23,071 nt of DNA. It comes from a virus. Below, piece after piece: positions 1 to 21,906 of this stretch (position 1 is its first letter; each line of letters begins with the position of its first letter). Below the pieces are notes generated by a model, which worked only from the letters and a program-made list of their open reading frames with translations, was not told the DNA's origin and ran no database searches. Both the position numbers and the translations under genes were made by a program. Where the stretch lies: the IMG/VR virus record IMGVR_UViG_3300044825_002541, positions 1 through 23,071 of that record. One strand, written 5' to 3'.

Positions 1-2041
1 TTTGATTGTAGATTGATTCGCCTACGGATGAGAGCTCACTCAAACGAATATTGTCACGAATCTTGTCCTTTACAACCTTAGCTTCAGACTCATGTATCTT
101 ATAGCCTTTTTCCAAAAGCTCATTATAGCGCTGGCGGAACTCCAATTCCACCTGACGATCCTCGCCACTTAGGCCCGCTAGGAATGCATTGTCGTTCAAA
201 GATCTGTACATCTTATCACGGGATTCACTAGCCGCAATGATAAGACTTATTTGCTCTGTTATAACCTTATTATAAGATTTAGCAGATGCATTCTCTTCCC
301 CAAGCATTTCCCGCATGAAGGGCTGCTTATCTAGCAAATCGTCACGGGCTCTTGACAATGCCTCAGTACTAAGCTTACCCTGTTTCATCAGAATATCAAG
401 GTTAGCCCACTCCTGAACAAAATCTGGATTTAACCCTTGGGACCGAGCGTAAGTGGCATCTAGCTTTTTCTGGAACGGGTCTGCCTTACCTTTACCACCC
501 AATACATCCGTCAACTTGGCCGAATCAGGCGATAGTATTTGACCCGTCTTTGAAAGCCATTGAGCAGCATTAGCCCTATCAGCATCAGTCTTGAATCTAG
601 AATCACCCAAAATGCTAGCCAATTTTGAGGCCATCTCTTGGTTCAGATTTTCAGGCTTCATAAGACCCGAAACACTGCGCAGATTTTTTAGACCATTAAA
701 CTGCTGCAGTAATGGCATGATCATCTGCCATTTGACTTTAGATTGCTCTGCAGATAGTGCTTCAGCCTGTTGGCGGGCCTTAAGGTCGGCCTCCATGCGT
801 TTAACCTCGTCGTCCAGACTGGATCCCATTTTGGATCCAGCATAGGCTCCGCCAACAGCGCCCAGTGTTCCGGCTGCCGCAGCGCCCCACGGCCCTGCAA
901 CAGCCCCGCCTGCCAAAGCTCCGCCCACGGCGCCTACTATAGCACCAAATTTGGCCGAGTTATTTATGACCCAAGTCATGGCATCAGCTAGCTTTGATAT
1001 AACCGTAACCACCATATCGACGCCTTTAGAAAAGGTGTCGAAGCCATTACGTATATCGTCGGCAGTAAGATTAGCTATGAAAGAGCTTACCCGCTCTGCC
1101 ACATTCTTAATCAGATCTGCGAATCGTGAGATCACATATGGATCTGATAACTTCTTTCTAAGTTCATCAAAGACACCTACAATAGCCTGACCAGCCCCAG
1201 AATCTAATACCTCTTTGACAAAATCTACCCATACATTAGTTAACCTATTCATGGATGCTGAGACACTTTGCGAGGCTTTCTCAGCAGAATCCGCAAAGGT
1301 TCTTATCAATGCATCGCCAAATATAGGCAGGAACTTGTCAGAAACTACTATTCCCTTACGGATGGCCTTTTCAAGCTCTTCTGGAATAGTGTTCAACGCC
1401 TTAGCGGCAATCTGTATCACTCCAGGAAGTTTTTCGCCCAACTGCCTGCGAAGTTCTTCCATAGACACGATACCTTTGGATGCAATCTGGGTAATTGCAT
1501 AGAACATCAGTTGTGTATCTTGATTGGAAGAATGCAGCGTTCTGGCGGCCATAGCCACGCCCAGAAATGCCCTATTAGCTATATCCAGCTTTTCAGATCC
1601 CTCTGGAATCGCTGCAACAAGTTTGGCATAGTTACCGGTCAGGGCATCAAACTGAACACCTAATTGGTCGGCAGTTTTACGCAGGAAGATGTAAGAGTTT
1701 GCGGCCTCTGCGCTACTCTTAGTACTTACTGACATAATGGCATTGAAGCCTTGGAGCTTATCCAGCTCATTCAGCAGCGAATTAAATACCAGCGTTATTG
1801 CGCCGGATACATTTCGCAACACATTTAGCAATGTGTTAGCAAGGCTTGACAGGCGCTGAAAAGCCCCGCCAATGCCTTGCTGGATATTCTGGCCATAAGC
1901 AATGGCCGCACGGCTACCTTGTTGAAGGGTATTTGTAAGCGAATTAAATGCGCCTTGCGCAGTATTTATCGCTGCCGCTAGATTGTTAAACGCCCCTACC
2001 GCCTGACTGGTCTGCGCGTTGACTTGTAGATTTGTTGCCAC
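1..2041 (-). CDS. Tail tape measure protein, N-terminal part (runs off the window)
   Basis: The tape measure protein sets tail length, occupies the tail tube lumen and helps DNA enter the host. About 680 codons are visible, starting at a GTG (2041-2039) directly after an in-frame TAA, and the frame stays open to base 1. Residues about 60-185 match the tape measure N-terminal domain pattern (TIGR02675-like), with FNAIMSVSTKS, LGVQFDALTGNYAKL, LFLGVAMAARTL-like and MEELRRQLGEKLPG segments. Residues about 364-400 form a glycine/alanine-rich zipper (GAIVGAVGGALAGG, AGTLGAVGGAYAGS), which is typical of membrane-inserting segments. The following region is charged and helical. The gene overlaps the 3' end of the frameshifted chaperone G-T by 56 nt, the usual arrangement in siphoviruses. 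The C-terminus lies outside the window. Identification is secure. Confidence 0.95.
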   Translation of the reverse strand, partial: MATNLQVNAQTSQAVGAFNNLAAAINTAQGAFNSLTNTLQQGSRAAIAYGQNIQQGIGGAFQRLSSLANTLLNVLRNVSGAITLVFNSLLNELDKLQGFNAIMSVSTKSSAEAANSYIFLRKTADQLGVQFDALTGNYAKLVAAIPEGSEKLDIANRAFLGVAMAARTLHSSNQDTQLMFYAITQIASKGIVSMEELRRQLGEKLPGVIQIAAKALNTIPEELEKAIRKGIVVSDKFLPIFGDALIRTFADSAEKASQSVSASMNRLTNVWVDFVKEVLDSGAGQAIVGVFDELRKKLSDPYVISRFADLIKNVAERVSSFIANLTADDIRNGFDTFSKGVDMVVTVISKLADAMTWVINNSAKFGAIVGAVGGALAGGAVAGPWGAAAAGTLGAVGGAYAGSKMGSSLDDEVKRMEADLKARQQAEALSAEQSKVKWQMIMPLLQQFNGLKNLRSVSGLMKPENLNQEMASKLASILGDSRFKTDADRANAAQWLSKTGQILSPDSAKLTDVLGGKGKADPFQKKLDATYARSQGLNPDFVQEWANLDILMKQGKLSTEALSRARDDLLDKQPFMREMLGEENASAKSYNKVITEQISLIIAASESRDKMYRSLNDNAFLAGLSGEDRQVELEFRQRYNELLEKGYKIHESEAKVVKDKIRDNIRLSELSSVGESIYNQ

Positions 2042-2737
2042 TTAGTTCTCTTTTGGTTTGATCCATCAAACCTAGTAAATCAACAAATACGTCCATTGGT
2101 ACAGACGGATGTCCGAACAACTGAACGTATGCCACAATCTCCGATAGTTGGATTGGCTCTGCGGCGAATCCTATTGACCGGCGCGCATCTAGGGATTGAA
2201 ATGCGTCAACAATTTCCTTGGTTACTGGATAGAGTATTGGAGCATTGGTGAGAGCCTGCGGAGGATCCAGTCCTGCGGCTAGATTAGCTGACTCTATCTC
2301 CTTCAGCTTATCTAACTTGGAGCCCCATTCGGAGCTCCAAGTAACCCAATGCTTTAGCTGTTTCCCAGTTCAGCCACCTGCTCATCGCGATAGTGACCAA
2401 TATTGGTGGCAAAATCGCTGACGAAATCGCGAAACTCCACATTAGCCAGCAATGCCGTATTCGCGGCTTTAGTGCTAAAGGGCACGTCTTCGCCGGATTT
2501 GGTTTTAACATCCTTCCAATCCATCAAAATACCTTCAGACATGGCCTGGCAAAGGATGGATTTATTAACCGCCGGATCGAGACGACCCTCTGTAATCTTC
2601 CGCATGTGAGGCTGCTGAAGACGTGCAAGAGCTCGCTGGAATTTCAGGTTGGAAATATGGGCGATCTTGAATTTGGAATCGTCGAATTCGGTCCAAACCC
2701 CATCGTCCACTGTGGAAAGGTCAGCATCGATAATCAT
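1986..2737 (-). CDS. Tail assembly chaperone G-T-like fusion made by -1 frameshift
   Basis: A -1 slip on the heptamer GGGAAAC (plus-strand 2360-2366, zero-frame GGA AAC) moves ribosomes into a frame that stays open to a TAA at 1988-1986. The extension begins QLKHWVTWSSEWGSKLDK and ends SQRADQSGGRGV, about 124 residues, giving a fusion of about 250. The extension has no good independent start and exactly fills the gap between the short form and the tape measure gene, overlapping the latter by 56 nt. By analogy with lambda gpGT the extension would bind the tail tube protein while the shared N-terminal part binds the tape measure. I translated the -1 frame by hand and found it open throughout. 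Confidence 0.85.
2315..2366 (-). promoter_or_regulatory. -1 ribosomal frameshift signal (GGGAAAC plus hairpin)
   Basis: The slippery heptamer G GGA AAC lies at 2366-2360 in the correct phase. Seventeen nucleotides downstream is a 12-bp stem (ACTTGGAGCTCC at 2342-2331 pairing with GGGGCTCCAAGT at 2326-2315, one G-U pair) closed by a GAAU loop. The lambda site is GGGAAAG, so the heptamer class matches known tail chaperone recoding sites. The spacer is longer than the usual 5-9 nt, so the stem may act as part of a larger fold. Confidence 0.85.
2354..2737 (-). CDS. Tail assembly chaperone G-like (short form)
   Basis: This 127-residue protein begins MIIDADLSTVDDGVW and follows the tail tube gene by 17 nt, with an AAGGAAA-type ribosome site. 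Its place between tube and tape measure, its length and the slippery heptamer seven codons from its end identify it as the short form of the tail assembly chaperone, functionally equivalent to lambda gpG. Such proteins coat the tape measure and recruit tube subunits during assembly, and they are absent from the virion. The C-terminal part is acidic and helical (FRDFVSDFATNIGHYRDEQVAELGNS, ending at TAA 2356-2354). Sequence similarity to lambda is not evident; the assignment rests on synteny and the recoding site. Confidence 0.85.
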   Translation of the reverse strand: MIIDADLSTVDDGVWTEFDDSKFKIAHISNLKFQRALARLQQPHMRKITEGRLDPAVNKSILCQAMSEGILMDWKDVKTKSGEDVPFSTKAANTALLANVEFRDFVSDFATNIGHYRDEQVAELGNS

Positions 2738-2754
2738 AATTATGGTTTCCTTGA

Positions 2755-3693
2755 TTAGACTGGATCTGCGATCAGTTTGATGACATTCGTCGCCGTTGCA
2801 TCATACAGAGCGCGCCACTTGCCGGACAGCATGACGTCGGTGTTCTTGCCGCCCGCAACCACGGTCCCCGCCTCGAACTTGCAACGAGGCAGCGTAACCA
2901 GGTACTTGTTGCCATCGATATCCACCAAATCGAAGGCTATGTCAAAAGTAGTACCGGCAATGTATGCCGCATACTGGTCACCATCATTAAAGTAGAACTC
3001 GATATCGCCAGTAACTTCAAGGGTACCGAGTTTGATGTCCTTAGGTCCCACAGAACCTATACACATTGTTGCCCGCAAGTTATTCTTGATCATCAAGGAC
3101 AACGAGCTAATGCAACCAGTATATGGCACACCACCGAGCGTCAGATTCTGCACGTTGGCCACCGCATTCATGGGCGTAGTGGATGGTGCAGCAGGAGTCG
3201 TAGCGCCTGAGAACTGTGTGGTTGACGGCGTGCAACCGACGGATAGGAAATTGAAGGATCCTTCGACAATCTTCCCCAATTCCATTTTAAGACTCAGGCT
3301 CTCAATGACACAACCCTTAAAGTTATGGAATTGAGGAGTGCTCAAATCAGGGAAATGCTTTTGAATGGTAAAAGACGATCGTGTAGTACCATTAGTCAGC
3401 TCTTCTTGATCACCTATACCGGCCGTCCAGGCGGAGCAGAATAGTGCCGCAAGGAAATCCTTATAACTACCGTACGACAATTCGATATTGATGTCGCCAG
3501 CACCTTGAACGGATGTTTGCACCAGATCTTGCTGGGTACGATCAGGGCGAATCTCGTTCGAGGTTGTATTCTCGATGTTATGATTCAGGGATTCGCCAGT
3601 AAAGCGGATTTGCTTCAACGCTGGCGAGCTGGGCGTCACGCCAAAGGTAGTCTCTTTAACAGCACGGAGTGCGACCAGGTCTGCAGATGACAT
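2755..3693 (-). CDS. Major tail tube protein
   Basis: This 312-residue protein (start MSSADLVALRAVKETTFG, GAGG ribosome site) has the organisation of siphovirus tail tube proteins. The N-terminal stretch with TTFGVTP and LKQIRFTGESL is typical of the phage tail tube protein families (TTP_3/PF18906-like). The rest is rich in beta strands and Thr/Gly, with no membrane segments. It would polymerise into hexameric rings around the tape measure. It lies directly downstream of the tail terminator gene and directly upstream of the chaperone, the standard order. The exact Pfam family is a judgement from sequence style; the role is well supported by position and length. Confidence 0.88.
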   Translation of the reverse strand: MSSADLVALRAVKETTFGVTPSSPALKQIRFTGESLNHNIENTTSNEIRPDRTQQDLVQTSVQGAGDINIELSYGSYKDFLAALFCSAWTAGIGDQEELTNGTTRSSFTIQKHFPDLSTPQFHNFKGCVIESLSLKMELGKIVEGSFNFLSVGCTPSTTQFSGATTPAAPSTTPMNAVANVQNLTLGGVPYTGCISSLSLMIKNNLRATMCIGSVGPKDIKLGTLEVTGDIEFYFNDGDQYAAYIAGTTFDIAFDLVDIDGNKYLVTLPRCKFEAGTVVAGGKNTDVMLSGKWRALYDATATNVIKLIADPV

Positions 3694-13251: not shown

Positions 13252-13614
13252 TCATTTCCCCTGCGGAGTTTTGAGAGCACGGATTTCGTACTCATTACCT
13301 AGTGTCTTTTCGGTCAGCAGTCTGATTGTCGTATCACGTTCGTGCTGCGAACGCTCCAGACTTTGAAGCCTAAGCTCGATTGTAGCTGAGGCTAAATTAT
13401 TCTTATTCACAGCGTCTTCGACCGCTTGCAGACGCCCAAGCACCGCGTTCAGTGCCCACAATGACATTGGAATAAACACCGCTGTCATTATGTACTGCAG
13501 CACTTTCAGCAGAGCTGAATCTGCAATTGATTGAAGTTTTTGCTCTGCCATACGCCTATGGTAAGGTTGTTTGGACAAAGGATTGAATGATCCAGGCTTC
13601 GAATCTTCAGCCAT
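13252..13614 (-). CDS. Single-span membrane protein with C-terminal coiled coil
   Basis: The start is ATG 13614-13612 with GGAGG four bases upstream; longer forms lack a ribosome site. The 120-residue protein has a polar basic N-terminus (NPLSKQPYHRRMAEQK) and one transmembrane segment at about 38-59 (VLQYIMTAVFIPMSLWALNAVL). A charged coiled coil follows (LGRLQAVEDAVNK, IELRLQSLERSQHERDTTIRLLTEK). The C-terminus carries no enzyme motif. One membrane span plus a coiled coil is compatible with a holin-like, inner-membrane spanin-like or superinfection-exclusion protein; the neighbouring lipoprotein makes a two-protein envelope pair possible. It ends in an ATGA overlap with the next fibre-anchor gene. 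Topology is confident, function unknown. Confidence 0.7.
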   Translation of the reverse strand: MAEDSKPGSFNPLSKQPYHRRMAEQKLQSIADSALLKVLQYIMTAVFIPMSLWALNAVLGRLQAVEDAVNKNNLASATIELRLQSLERSQHERDTTIRLLTEKTLGNEYEIRALKTPQGK

Positions 13615-14430: not shown

Positions 14431-14763
14431 TTAATCCAATCGCACAAGTTCGTCAGCTTCTGTCACAAGGGGTACCTCCACGTCCACTATGGAGCCATTT
14501 CCCAACTCGCGTGTTTCGAAAAGGCTTACGATCACGCGTCGTTGGTCGGAATTGTCATTTTTTACTTCTACGGACGACAATTTTGGCGTAACGTACGGCA
14601 AAATTGCTTTGTGGACTTCAAGTTCGAGCTTTGGGTCGGCAGTTACATCTGCACTATGAGCCAGGCGAGCAAGTGCAATGAGTGGATGGTAGTTCTGAAA
14701 CTCAGACTGTACCAAACTCAGCGCCATTTCACTAGCATTTCGGACCCGAACAACCGAGCTCAT
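14431..14763 (-). CDS. Terminase small subunit-like protein
   Basis: This 110-residue protein begins MSSVVRVRNASEMALSLV. Its core NYHPLIALARLAHSADVTAD-PKLELEVHKAILPYVTPKL has the pattern hPhxxLxxhAxxxxxx-xhxhxxHxxhhPYVxPKL, which is common in phage small terminase subunits. These bind the packaging start site and hand DNA to the large subunit. The C-terminal part (RRVIVSLFETRELGNGSIVDVEVP) could contact the large subunit. It is the first gene of the late operon, with promoter P2 20 bp upstream and GGTGG before the ATG. The call is inferred from motif style and position, and the large subunit gene is unusually far away. Confidence 0.62.
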   Translation of the reverse strand: MSSVVRVRNASEMALSLVQSEFQNYHPLIALARLAHSADVTADPKLELEVHKAILPYVTPKLSSVEVKNDNSDQRRVIVSLFETRELGNGSIVDVEVPLVTEADELVRLD

Positions 14764-14932: not shown

Positions 14933-14960
14933 CATCGCTCATCGCTCATCGCCCATCGTA
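14933..14960 (+). repeat. Tandem heptamer array, 4 x CATCGYN
   Basis: Four consecutive 7-bp units read CATCGCT, CATCGCT, CATCGCC, CATCGTA without gaps. A second four-unit array with the same core and the same terminal CATCGTA lies at 16587-16614. Two-unit inverted versions occur at 17052-17065, 17109-17122 and 17825-17838. The repeats are outside coding regions and near promoters, so they may be protein-binding sites. Confidence 0.7.
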
Positions 14961-15199: not shown

Positions 15200-15523
15200 A
15201 TGACTACCCATACCGATACCCAAGTCGCGGCCGTCCGGTCCATGACCAACAAGGAGATGGTCGTCGCCATCCTCGAGTTGCAAGCTCAAGTGAAGGCTTT
15301 GCAAGAAGCATCCACCAAGCCGAAGACCGAAGGCAAGGAAATGACCGATGATGACGCATACAAGGTCATCTTCGGCGACATGTCTTCGGTGAGGCACAAG
15401 GATGCCGCGGACAAGCTCGGACTCACCTACGGACAAGTCTACTCGGCACGACTCGGCTTCACCTTCAAGAATGTGCACAAGCAAGGTGCAGCCGAGGGTA
15501 AGAAGAATCCTTGGGCGAAGTAA
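15200..15523 (+). CDS. Helix-turn-helix-like regulator, plus-strand paralogue
   Basis: This 107-residue protein is one of the few plus-strand genes, with AAAGGAAA before the ATG. The N-terminal part (MTNKEMVVAILELQAQVKALQEA) is a short coiled coil. Residues about 47-93 form a helical domain with the motif HKDAADKLGLTYGQVYSARLGFTFK, which looks like a helix-turn-helix or homing-type DNA-binding unit. The C-terminus (GKKNPWAK) is basic. The domain is clearly shared with the minus-strand gene at 16473 (MTD-x-DA, GDM, HK-AA, GLTY-QVYS, GFTFK). I do not recognise a named family. Transcription regulation or DNA binding is the best inference, possibly acting on the repeat-rich sites nearby. Confidence 0.78.
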   Translation: MTTHTDTQVAAVRSMTNKEMVVAILELQAQVKALQEASTKPKTEGKEMTDDDAYKVIFGDMSSVRHKDAADKLGLTYGQVYSARLGFTFKNVHKQGAAEGKKNPWAK

Positions 15524-16014: not shown

Positions 16015-16473
16015 TCACTTCTTGTGGATCGTAGTACTCTTTTCCCAAGTATTCTTCCATCCAGTCTTCTCGAGGTCATGGATGACATGCTTGAATGTGA
16101 ATCCACCCCTACACGAATACACCTGAGCGTAGGTCAAGCCCATTGCAATTGCAGCCTCTTTGTGATTGAGGTCTTTCATGTCACCTTGCAACACCCGCAT
16201 TGCATCGGCGTCCGTCATATTCCGCTTTGTAGGGGCACTCTTATTGCGGCCCTCGACCTTGGCAGTTAGTGTATCCACTTGGTCGGTAAGACCAGCGAGT
16301 ACACCACCGATGTGCGATGTGATTTGGGTCTCCAAATCCACGATCTTGTGACCGTGTGCATCGGAGGTTTTTCCGGCTGCCTCAGCAAGCTCAAAAAGCT
16401 TATTGATTTGCACTTGGAGGCTGTCGAGACGGCCCTTGATTTCGGTAAGGTCTTGGTCAACACGGGGGTTCAT
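16015..16473 (-). CDS. Coiled-coil, helix-turn-helix-like regulator (minus-strand paralogue)
   Basis: The likely start is ATG 16473-16471, giving 152 residues (MNPRVDQDLTEIKGRLDSLQ); longer forms need TTG or upstream DNA without a ribosome site, although the Shine-Dalgarno before this ATG is also weak. Residues 1-80 form a long coiled coil (LTEIKGRLDSLQVQINKLFEL, VDLETQITSHIGGVLAGLTDQ). Residues about 85-145 repeat the DNA-binding-like domain of the 15200 gene (MTDADAMRVLQGDMKDLNHKEAA, GLTYAQVYSCRGGFTFK). Oligomerisation through the coiled coil and binding to repeated sites is plausible. It has its own promoter P3, and its 3' end converges on the plus-strand paralogue's operon. Confidence 0.78.
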   Translation of the reverse strand: MNPRVDQDLTEIKGRLDSLQVQINKLFELAEAAGKTSDAHGHKIVDLETQITSHIGGVLAGLTDQVDTLTAKVEGRNKSAPTKRNMTDADAMRVLQGDMKDLNHKEAAIAMGLTYAQVYSCRGGFTFKHVIHDLEKTGWKNTWEKSTTIHKK

Positions 16474-16520
16474 GTAGTGCTTTCGGATGGGGCGTTGATC
16501 CAGTACCAACGCTCAATGAT

Positions 16521-16560
16521 ATTGTATACCATTCTGGCGTCCCTTGTACATATATTTGAT
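16521..16560 (-). promoter_or_regulatory. Promoter P3 for the minus-strand regulator
   Basis: ATCAAA (16560-16555), 4 bp, TGTACA (16550-16545), then either TATACA after 16 bp (16528-16523) or TACAAT after 18 bp (16526-16521). The leader to ATG 16473 is about 40 nt. The ATCAAA-N4-TGTACA half is identical in layout to P1, P2, P4 and P5. Confidence 0.72.
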
Positions 16561-16586
16561 CGAGGTCCTGCACCTTTATCATGGCC

Positions 16587-16614
16587 CATCGCACATCGTG
16601 CATCGTGCATCGTA
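16587..16614 (+). repeat. Tandem heptamer array, 4 x CATCGYR
   Basis: Units CATCGCA, CATCGTG, CATCGTG, CATCGTA follow without gaps, about 27 bp upstream of the P3 ATCAAA box. They share the core and final unit with the array at 14933-14960, also placed upstream of a promoter of the same family. Confidence 0.7.
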
Positions 16615-16707
16615 TTCCTGATGGAACCGCATCGTACACCGGGCATCGATCCAGGACTTATGACAATGGAGATCACCAGGAAAAGCCTCGAGGGCCCAAG
16701 TGGAGTA

Positions 16708-16737
16708 CTTTTGTGCGCTTTTGTGCACTTTTGTGCG
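16708..16737 (+). repeat. 3 x 10-bp tandem repeat CTTTTGTGCR
   Basis: CTTTTGTGCG, CTTTTGTGCA, CTTTTGTGCG follow directly at a 10-bp period, close to one helical turn, so bound proteins would sit on the same face of DNA. It lies 18 bp before the first GTGGGTAAAC site. Confidence 0.75.
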
Positions 16738-16754
16738 CCCCAGATAGCAATTGT

Positions 16755-17200
16755 GTTTACCCACCCCGAACAAGACCTACCCACCTTAGGTGGGTAAACC
16801 TAATTGCCAAAAGTCGTTATAAATTAATAACTTAAGTGTTTACCCACTATTTACTACATAAGTACGTACAAGTTCCTACTTTATTTTTTTAATACTTACA
16901 GAGTATTATGGCAATGATTACTCCTTTTATTATTTCTTTAATAATATATAGTTATGTAGTAAATAGTGGGTAAACACTTAAGTTATTAATTTATAACGGC
17001 TTTTTACTATTAGGTTTAGCACACGCCGACGGTAACTATTGTGGTAAATCATACGATGTGCGATGCACAACGGTGGGTAAATACTTGTCCGGAGTACATT
17101 GGGCCTTGTACGATGTGCGATGTGTAACGTACCAATTCTTCCGGACGAGTGTACAGGTGTCACAGAAGCTACCCTCCTGGATCGTTTTGAGTGGGTAACA
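16755..17200. repeat. Seven GTGGGTAAAC-type sites (iteron/operator candidates)
   Basis: Minus orientation: 16755-16764, 16775-16784 (GTGGGTAGGT) and 16838-16847. Plus orientation: 16790-16799, 16966-16975, 17073-17082 (GTGGGTAAAT) and 17191-17200 (GTGGGTAACA). Most extend toward GTGGGTAAACAC. The second and third sites in order form a perfect palindrome TACCCACC-TTA-GGTGGGTA at 16778-16796. Two sites lie inside the arms of the long inverted repeat. No such sites were noticed elsewhere in the window. Confidence 0.75.
16795..17018. repeat. 67-bp inverted repeat with 90-bp AT-rich centre
   Basis: Arms 16795-16861 and 16952-17018 are reverse complements at 63 of 67 positions; the inner 47 bp (16815-16861 and 16952-16998) are perfect. 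The centre (16862-16951) is very AT-rich and contains a small dyad AATACT/AGTATT. The structure could extrude as a large cruciform, form a long RNA stem, or present paired sites for a dimeric or looping protein. Confidence 0.9.
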
Positions 17201-17276
17201 CTAATTTTCTCCCGGACGAGATTAAAGGATCGCACAACTACGACACCTGTTCGCGGTTCCTGTTGCGGAAAACGAC

Positions 17277-17310
17277 GATGGCCTCCAATGCCGAAGCATT
17301 GGAGGCCATC
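17277..17310 (-). terminator. Rho-independent terminator with UUCG loop
   Basis: A perfect 15-bp stem (17296-17310 with 17277-17291) closed on the minus strand by TTCG, the stable C(UUCG)G tetraloop. It is followed by GTCGTTTT. It lies about 50 bp after the stop codon of the 17785 gene and closes the rightmost group of minus-strand genes, insulating the repeat-rich region. Confidence 0.82.
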
Positions 17311-17359: not shown

Positions 17360-17785
17360 TTAGAAGTACTTCTCAACAGCGGGTTGGAAATGACGGATCA
17401 TATTGTCCGTATCCATGTAGAATGCCCATGCACGACGTATGGCGTCCGTACGACTGAAACTAGTATCATCGTCTTGAAAGGAGCCTTCCGAGTGCATCCA
17501 GCGGTATTGACCGTGCCAGCCGTTGCCGTACACCTTGCCCATGTCTTCGATGATGAAGCCGTGTTGGATGAGGATCTCTTCATGACGGCAGTCGTAGACT
17601 GCGTTCATCATGCTGAGCCATTCGAGGTCATCTGCACTGAGGCCGTATTCTTGCGTCGGATCGACGGCAAATAGGTTGGAACTTGAGACGTACGGGTCTG
17701 TCACGAAGATGCCGGACTGTTCGTCGTAAAAGCCAAATGCCGGCTCAGATGAAGCTTCGGCAGTTCGGTTGAGTTCAAGTTGCAT
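17360..17785 (-). CDS. Hypothetical acidic 141-residue protein
   Basis: The start is ATG 17785-17783 with GGTGGAG five bases upstream; a longer frame to 17845 would run through promoter P7 and is rejected. The protein (MQLELNRTAEASSEPAFGFY) is acidic and rich in aromatic residues. Its C-terminal half contains GKVYGNGWHGQYRWMHSEGS and DAIRRAWAFYMDTDNMIRHF, with no recognised motif or membrane segment. It is transcribed alone, between promoter P7 and the UUCG terminator, so it is probably expressed as a single-gene unit. Early phage genes arranged this way often encode host-interaction factors, but that is inference only. Confidence 0.75.
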   Translation of the reverse strand: MQLELNRTAEASSEPAFGFYDEQSGIFVTDPYVSSSNLFAVDPTQEYGLSADDLEWLSMMNAVYDCRHEEILIQHGFIIEDMGKVYGNGWHGQYRWMHSEGSFQDDDTSFSRTDAIRRAWAFYMDTDNMIRHFQPAVEKYF

Positions 17786-17813: not shown

Positions 17814-17852
17814 ATTATACTGCGCCCGATGCACGATGTACACACAATTTAT
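17814..17852 (-). promoter_or_regulatory. Promoter P7 for the 17785 gene
   Basis: TGTACA (17842-17837), a 17-bp spacer and perfect TATAAT (17819-17814). The upstream box at the expected position is ATAAAT (17852-17847), four of six matching ATCAAA. The spacer contains two CATCG heptamers (17825-17838). The ATG is 28 bp downstream. Confidence 0.75.
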
Positions 17853-19987: not shown

Positions 19988-20208
19988 TTCCAGTAAGGCC
20001 TTTCAATAGGCTTGTCATCAAGAGGTGCAGGTGAGGTCATGATTTCGTCCATTGCTCGTTGGCAATCCTCATCACCACATTCTGCCATACATCGGAGGCA
20101 GTCCCCGCCGCAGTCCTCAGTAGTCCGATCATTAGGATCGTTCAAGGCCCGCTTGCAGATACCGCAATAATGGATGAATGGCTTTGAGCATTGTGGATAT
20201 GTTTTCAT
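19984..20208 (-). CDS. Cysteine-rich putative zinc-binding protein (74 residues)
   Basis: ATG 20208-20206 overlaps the ATPase stop codon (ATGA). The protein MKTYPQCSKPFIHYCGICKR contains a first CxxC (CGIC) with a preceding Cys and His. A second group follows (DCGGDCLRCMAECGDEDC), so there are nine or more cysteines in about 50 residues. Two zinc ions or an iron-sulphur site could be bound. The C-terminus is Pro-rich and polar. No family is recognised. It sits between an ATPase and a zinc-ribbon microprotein, with both junctions coupled by ATGA, suggesting coordinated stoichiometry. Confidence 0.7.
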   Translation of the reverse strand: MKTYPQCSKPFIHYCGICKRALNDPNDRTTEDCGGDCLRCMAECGDEDCQRAMDEIMTSPAPLDDKPIERPYWK

Positions 20209-21820: not shown

Positions 21821-21834
21821 CATTACCTCTAGGG

Positions 21835-21906
21835 TTGCGCCAGTAGGACTCGAACCTACGACCTGGGACCGATGACATCCCCGCTCTACCGCTGAGCTAT
21901 GGCGCG
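21835..21906 (-). tRNA. tRNA, anticodon read as CAT, initiator-like C1xA72 end
   Basis: A full cloverleaf folds from 21906 to 21835. The acceptor 5' strand is CGCGCCA (21906-21900) pairing with TGGCGCA except for a C1-A72 mismatch. The D arm is GCTC-AGCGGTA-GAGC, and the anticodon stem is GGGAT/GTCCC (one U-G pair). The T arm is GTAGG-TTCGAGT-CCTAC with a canonical TTCGA loop, and G15-C48 Levitt pairing is possible. The 7-base anticodon loop reads GTCATCG, giving CAT after U33, but G32 and C37 are unusual. The 3' end reads CGCAACC, like initiator tRNA but without the final A. Initiator-type GGG/CCC at 29-31:39-41 is absent. The amino acid identity (Met or Ile) is uncertain. Confidence 0.8.

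Follow-up and report, generated by a model that had tools for sequence, protein, structure and literature searches.

A repeat-dense, AT-rich stem-loop region as a candidate replication origin in a siphovirus of the Xp15/Acinetobacter-Effie lineage

Organization of the locus

The window, by which we mean the whole stretch of 23,071 nucleotides analysed, is a 23-kb fragment of an uncultured siphovirus whose minus strand encodes the tape measure protein, the capsid protein and the large terminase. One of its non-coding regions contains clustered short boxes, a long inverted repeat and an AT-rich core, together referred to below as the island. A preliminary description had pictured this region as a candidate replication origin or master operator, composed of seven sites in both orientations, three 10-bp tandem units, a 67-bp inverted repeat and an AT-rich core, and lying between a strongly terminated gene block and a regulator gene. 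All these structural elements were found again in our analysis (Table 1).

Table 1. Coordinates of the island, its repeats and neighbouring features (positions in the window)
Feature	Position	Strand	Remark
Non-coding region	16474-17276		flanked by terminator 17310-17277 (-) and by HTH-like gene 16015-16473 (-) plus its promoter-like site
Three 10-bp tandem units, GCACAAAA type	16708..16738	-	
Second, smaller inverted repeat	16747-16765 / 16789-16807		centred on two GTGGGTAAAC sites
GTGGGTAAAC box, exact	16755..16764	-	contains GTGGGTA at 16758
GTGGGTA box, 7-mer only	16778..16784	-	
GTGGGTAAAC box, exact	16790..16799	+	CCTAA next, much as in G012 and G019
Long inverted repeat, left arm	16795..16864	+	includes CGTTATAAATTAATAACTTAAGTG and one GTTTACCCAC site
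GTGGGTAAAC box, exact	16838..16847	-	inside left arm; contains GTGGGTA at 16841
AT-rich core (loop) between arms	16865..16948		proposed unwinding element
Long inverted repeat, right arm	16949..17018	-	93% complementary to left arm
GTGGGTAAAC box, exact	16966..16975	+	inside right arm
GTGGGTAAAT box	17073..17082	+	one mismatch to GTGGGTAAAC
GTGGGTAACA box	17191..17200	+	two mismatches to GTGGGTAAAC
Intrinsic terminator, strong	17277..17310	-	closes gene 17360-17785
Promoter-like TGTACA-N18-TACAAT of HTH2 gene	16521..16550	-	outside island
HTH2, coiled-coil and HTH-like protein	16015..16473	-	family accompanying island in relatives
HTH1, paralogue of HTH2	15200..15523	+	
Putative small terminase gene	14431-14763		weak profile match only

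The repeat cluster is real and not due to chance. All seven GTGGGTA copies of the window (at 16758, 16778 and 16841 on the minus strand, at 16790, 16966, 17073 and 17191 on the plus strand) fall within 16758-17197. Dinucleotide shuffling of the 506-bp region, repeated 1000 times, gave 0.17 copies on average and never more than three. The seven are not all independent, as one inverted repeat carries two of them, one in each arm. Four of the seven belong to exact copies of the box GTGGGTAAAC. The arms of the long inverted repeat, each 70 nt in length (67 bp under stricter extension) and separated by 84 nt, can form a giant DNA stem-loop whose predicted fold is far better than that of shuffled DNA (z about -15; range -14.9 to -15.8), and no comparable inverted repeat was found elsewhere in the 23-kb window. 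The 84-bp core between the arms is the lowest-GC stretch of the window, with about 23% GC compared to 50% overall. Clustered short repeats adjoining an AT-rich candidate unwinding region are an arrangement that iteron-type origins have.

The terminator at the right border shields the island from transcription coming from that side. Eight promoter-like sites of the form TGTACA/TTTACA-N16-18-TAnAAT are present on the minus strand (22814, 22539, 21476, 19464, 17842, 16550, 14812 and 6521), mostly directly upstream of minus-strand genes. Some of them carry a GCCAGAA motif in the spacer, which recurs in the related contig G019 and at the related locus L056, and the spacer of the HTH2 site resembles those in the same two relatives. 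A tRNA-Met gene lies at 21833-21906.

The regulator gene adjacent to the island encodes HTH2, whose predicted model consists of long N-terminal helices and a confidently predicted HTH-like part. The family had no match above cut-off in Pfam, and its profile had none in PDB. It carries the signature MTDEDA..GLSYGQVYS.R..FTFK and is present in several copies in some phages. A search with the family identified 41 viral loci in IMG/VR, L056 and L075 among them, and one locus in an Acidimicrobiia MAG; IMG/VR searches with HTH2 alone, and with the protein at 20205, returned no relatives.

Conservation of the island in related phages

Relatives were collected from IMG/VR by protein and by DNA. A capsid-based search gave eleven contigs. 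The arm-derived DNA motif AATTAATAACTTAAGTG also gave eleven, mostly AT-rich and without a second copy; one of these, G012 (58.9 kb, 64% GC), was found by the DNA motif alone and was then shown to encode a 73% identical capsid protein. A gapped pattern for an outward-facing box pair matched three contigs, namely G004, G012 and the new G019, in which no terminase match was found but which encodes a primase-helicase (64% identical) and a polymerase (72% identical). The exact 17-mer GTGGGTAAACACTTAAG had no copy in IMG/VR. The closest cultured relatives found are Xp15, Effie, HHU4 and MD-2021a, phages of Xanthomonas and Acinetobacter, which share with the window the HTH family and AT-rich inverted-repeat islands (degenerate in Xp15) and differ from it by early genes that diverge from the block of structural genes.

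Equivalent islands occur in G012, G004, G019, L056, G011 and L075 and in the isolates Effie (49.85-50.12 kb), HHU4 (4.39-4.70 kb) and MD-2021a. In Xp15 the box of the AT-rich islands is degenerate. The gene order terminase - HTH - island is the same in the window, G004 and G011, and also in G012 if the contig is closed into a circle. AT-richness is kept even in G012, where the island has 19% GC in a genome of 64% GC. The preliminary description had proposed comparison with related phages as a check; the inverted AT-rich islands prove to be kept in place, with boxes shared in the closest relatives, and this positional conservation favours the origin half of its interpretation.

The element shared by the islands is an inverted TAAGTTRTTRAWWW pair flanking the AT-rich core. 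This shared TAAGTTRTTRAWWW element reads CTTAAGTTATTAATTT in the closest relatives of the window and is of the AAGTTGTT type in G011, L075, HHU4 and Effie, these divergent forms having been aligned by eye. The pair faces inward in the window and outward in G012, G004, G019 and L056; no copy of the inward-facing pair was found in IMG/VR. AATAACTTAAG is confined to islands in the window (2/2 copies), G012 (3/3), G004 (2/2) and G019 (2/2). The box GGTAAA[C/T] lies within the island in 5/7 cases in G012 (58.9 kb), 3/3 in G019 (36 kb), 2/3 at the L056 locus and 5/13 in the window,; the islands of G004, G011, L075, HHU4 and Effie have none, and the last two lack GTGGGTAAAC boxes as well. G012, G019 and L056 have GCACAAA-like copies of the 10-bp unit close to their islands, and L056 also carries the box pair, GGGTAAAC and a GCACAAA box.

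Sequence similarity aside, the large non-coding stem-loop is conserved in structure. Its z-score as DNA is -8.1 in L075, -7.2 in G012, -6.8 in G011, -5.2 in L056, -4.9 in G004, -4.8 in HHU4 and -3.4 in Effie; in G019 it is weak (-1.5). When the stems of G011 and L075 are compared, 42 pairs are kept in both, ten of them through double changes and none with a single-sided change, whereas a control with the partner slid yields only 0-2 doubles. Pairing maintained through double changes supports selection on the inverted symmetry, although conversion between the arms could be an alternative source of this covariation.

Other repeats were observed in these genomes. Dispersed heptamers of the CATCGCA/CATCGTG type, alternatively described as CGATGTGCGATG, have 23 matches in the window compared with 2.8 expected, mostly in intergenic DNA (14933-14958, 16580-16641, 17054-17122 and 17827-17838), and 7-bp-phased arrays of other sequence and similar layout are present in G012, G011, HHU4 and Effie. 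Repeats of another type than those of the window are seen at loci L070, L078 and L085: the AT-rich inverted repeats there, which lie upstream of the HTH gene, come with palindromic ATGATTATCAT-like repeats.

Candidate initiator and GC skew

The preliminary description stated that the window holds no recognisable initiator and named the paralogous HTH-like proteins as candidates for binding. The first statement is correct, though the window is a fragment and its relatives do encode a candidate. Pfam places a Prim-Pol domain and DUF5906, which we take to be an SF3-type helicase domain, in a single protein of G012, Xp15, Effie and DLP4, and homologues are present in G019, G011 and HHU4. In relatives that have the replication module, it further encodes a family-A polymerase as well as a helicase of the SNF2 type. 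This primase-helicase, encoded outside our fragment, is the likely initiator, rather than the HTH paralogues. Its gene does not adjoin the island in G012 (gene at 28.9-31.3 kb, island at 58.4 kb) or in G019 (gene at 2.4-4.8 kb, island at 35.6 kb), and in neither of them is the stem-loop situated 3' of the gene. In the papers searched we came upon no tailed phage with a primase-helicase of the Prim-Pol/SF3 type whose origin has been defined by experiment.

GC skew, another check proposed at the outset, gave a divided answer. Cumulative minima lie at or near the islands in Xp15, Effie and HHU4, where they are confounded by divergent gene orientation. They lie elsewhere in G012 (minimum at 41.5 kb, island at 58.4 kb, almost all genes sharing a strand) and in G011 (minimum at 44.9 kb, island at 36.3 kb). 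DnaA boxes (TTWTNCACA) were found in none of the islands tested, and the window has one, at 13403. IHF was rejected as a general explanation, its exact consensus being present among the islands only in that of G011.

Several observations count against an origin: the GC skew of G012 and G011, the lack of DnaA boxes, the separation of the island from the primase-helicase gene, the weak stem-loop of G019, the missing GGTAAAC boxes in five relatives, the differing orientation of the inverted pair and the ends of the Effie record inside its island. A further one is DLP4, which codes for a protein of this type yet lacks a comparable inverted repeat. An inverted repeat of window-like strength was not found in DLP4, Mallos or PaMx11, and the AT-rich DNA located 3' of the primase genes of DLP4 and Mallos holds none that is long and of similar quality.

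Relation to known origins

The closest parallel comes from the archaeal plasmid pRN1, in which a 100-bp stem-loop, the putative origin, is essential and, together with the replication operon, sufficient for replication; the authors of that work made the same proposal for Bordetella phage BIP-1 (PMC4234260). The island is similar to the pRN1 and BIP-1/BPP-1 elements as a large non-coding stem-loop with low sequence but high structural conservation, and the initiator type, an archaeo-eukaryotic primase joined to an SF3-type helicase, is found in the relatives of the window. The arms of the island are longer (70 nt), AT-rich and accompanied by additional iteron-like boxes. Moreover, the island and the replication gene are not neighbours, whereas a pRN1-type stem-loop lies 3' of that gene. 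The pRN1 initiator ORF904 is composed of prim-pol, SF3 and winged-helix domains; a C-terminal winged helix had no Pfam match in the phage Prim-Pol and DUF5906 protein.

By its layout, the island can also be likened to the origin of SaPI satellites, used by a Rep helicase, with repeats on either side of an AT-rich core. A similar layout is seen in satellite phage P4, where short repeated boxes in both orientations lie beside AT-rich DNA; primase and helicase are fused there in one protein, and the repeats are bound by the alpha protein. P4 alpha has a Toprim-type primase, unlike the Prim-Pol discussed here, and the same source (PMC4234260) describes no long stem-loop at the P4 origin. Initiators of P4 and SaPI also couple helicase and primase functions, SaPI having its primase and its initiator helicase as two distinct proteins (PMC7145576).

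Alternative explanations

Alternatively, a phage regulator, such as the HTH paralogues, might use the boxes and inverted arms as operators, and DNA looping between these would control the leftward operon beginning with the HTH2 gene. Paired inverted sites would suit looping, and in 22 of 31 loci, against 6.4 expected, the stretch of 200 bp with the lowest GC lies upstream of the HTH gene and no more than 1.3 kb away from it. An operator, however, needs neither a long low-GC core nor a stem of about 50 perfect pairs, and the HTH model had no significant match among known structures (Foldseek). The master-operator half of the preliminary interpretation is the weaker one: GTGGGTA occurs only in the island, being absent even at the HTH1 promoter, and the neighbouring sigma70-like promoters (TGTACA-N17/18-TAnAAT), that of HTH2 included, lie outside it. 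We consider a regulatory function of this kind unlikely.

It is rather improbable that the island is a packaging or genome-end site, in or near which terminase recognises and cuts the DNA. The island does lie about 2 kb upstream of the putative small terminase gene. In addition, the record of Effie (MW176033) has a near-identical 3.6-kb end repeat (1-3598 and 50001-53598), starting inside one AT-rich island and ending near another; its start at 50001 falls between island arms (left from 49857, right from 50076). Nevertheless, this repeat may represent an assembly overlap breaking at the AT-rich hairpin, which is plausible because the offset is exactly 50,000 and the deposited record of the close relative MD-2021a is circular. 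Pac and cos sites are not known to have, as a rule, iteron-like boxes and a long AT-rich core.

Despite its very stable fold, the inverted repeat is quite unlikely to act as RNA, either as a structured non-coding transcript or as a bidirectional terminator: its boxes are conserved between species, as expected of protein-binding DNA, its arms are AT-rich and not GC-rich, no promoter-like site lies inside it, and Rfam has no match for it, the only one obtained being to a tRNA. The chance insertion of a small MITE-like mobile element, suggested by terminal inverted repeats around an AT-rich interior of about 220 bp, is scarcely credible given the same gene context in divergent relatives, the lack of a target duplication visible by eye and the lack of any useful match to PLSDB plasmids. 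A DNA comparison of the region with phages likewise gave no useful match. A hairpin telomere of the protelomerase type was rejected because the arms are 84 bp apart and form no continuous palindrome.

A proposed model of initiation

With comparative evidence behind it, an origin appears the best of the several interpretations of the island, and we lean towards it with some reserve. The region probably serves a siphovirus of the Xp15/Acinetobacter-Effie lineage as its replication origin. The Prim-Pol and SF3-type (DUF5906) primase-helicase encoded by the relatives would recognise the boxes, the stem-loop or both, assemble on both arms and then melt the AT-rich core. It would prime two diverging forks, both of which would be extended by the phage's own family-A DNA polymerase. 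Such a mode would combine a pRN1-like stem-loop with iterons as in phage P4.

We propose, more tentatively, that a lineage of tailed phages may initiate replication at a conserved hybrid origin, in which a giant AT-rich stem-loop held by covariation and a set of iteron boxes are read by a Prim-Pol/SF3 primase-helicase. If this is true, the hybrid origin would extend the initiation mode of the archaeal plasmid pRN1 to phages that infect Xanthomonas, Acinetobacter or uncultured hosts. The comparative footprint in about ten phages, including the cultured Effie and HHU4, names a fragment of 200-300 bp and a protein, and these offer the means to learn whether stem-loop initiation, as proposed for pRN1, works in bacterial viruses.
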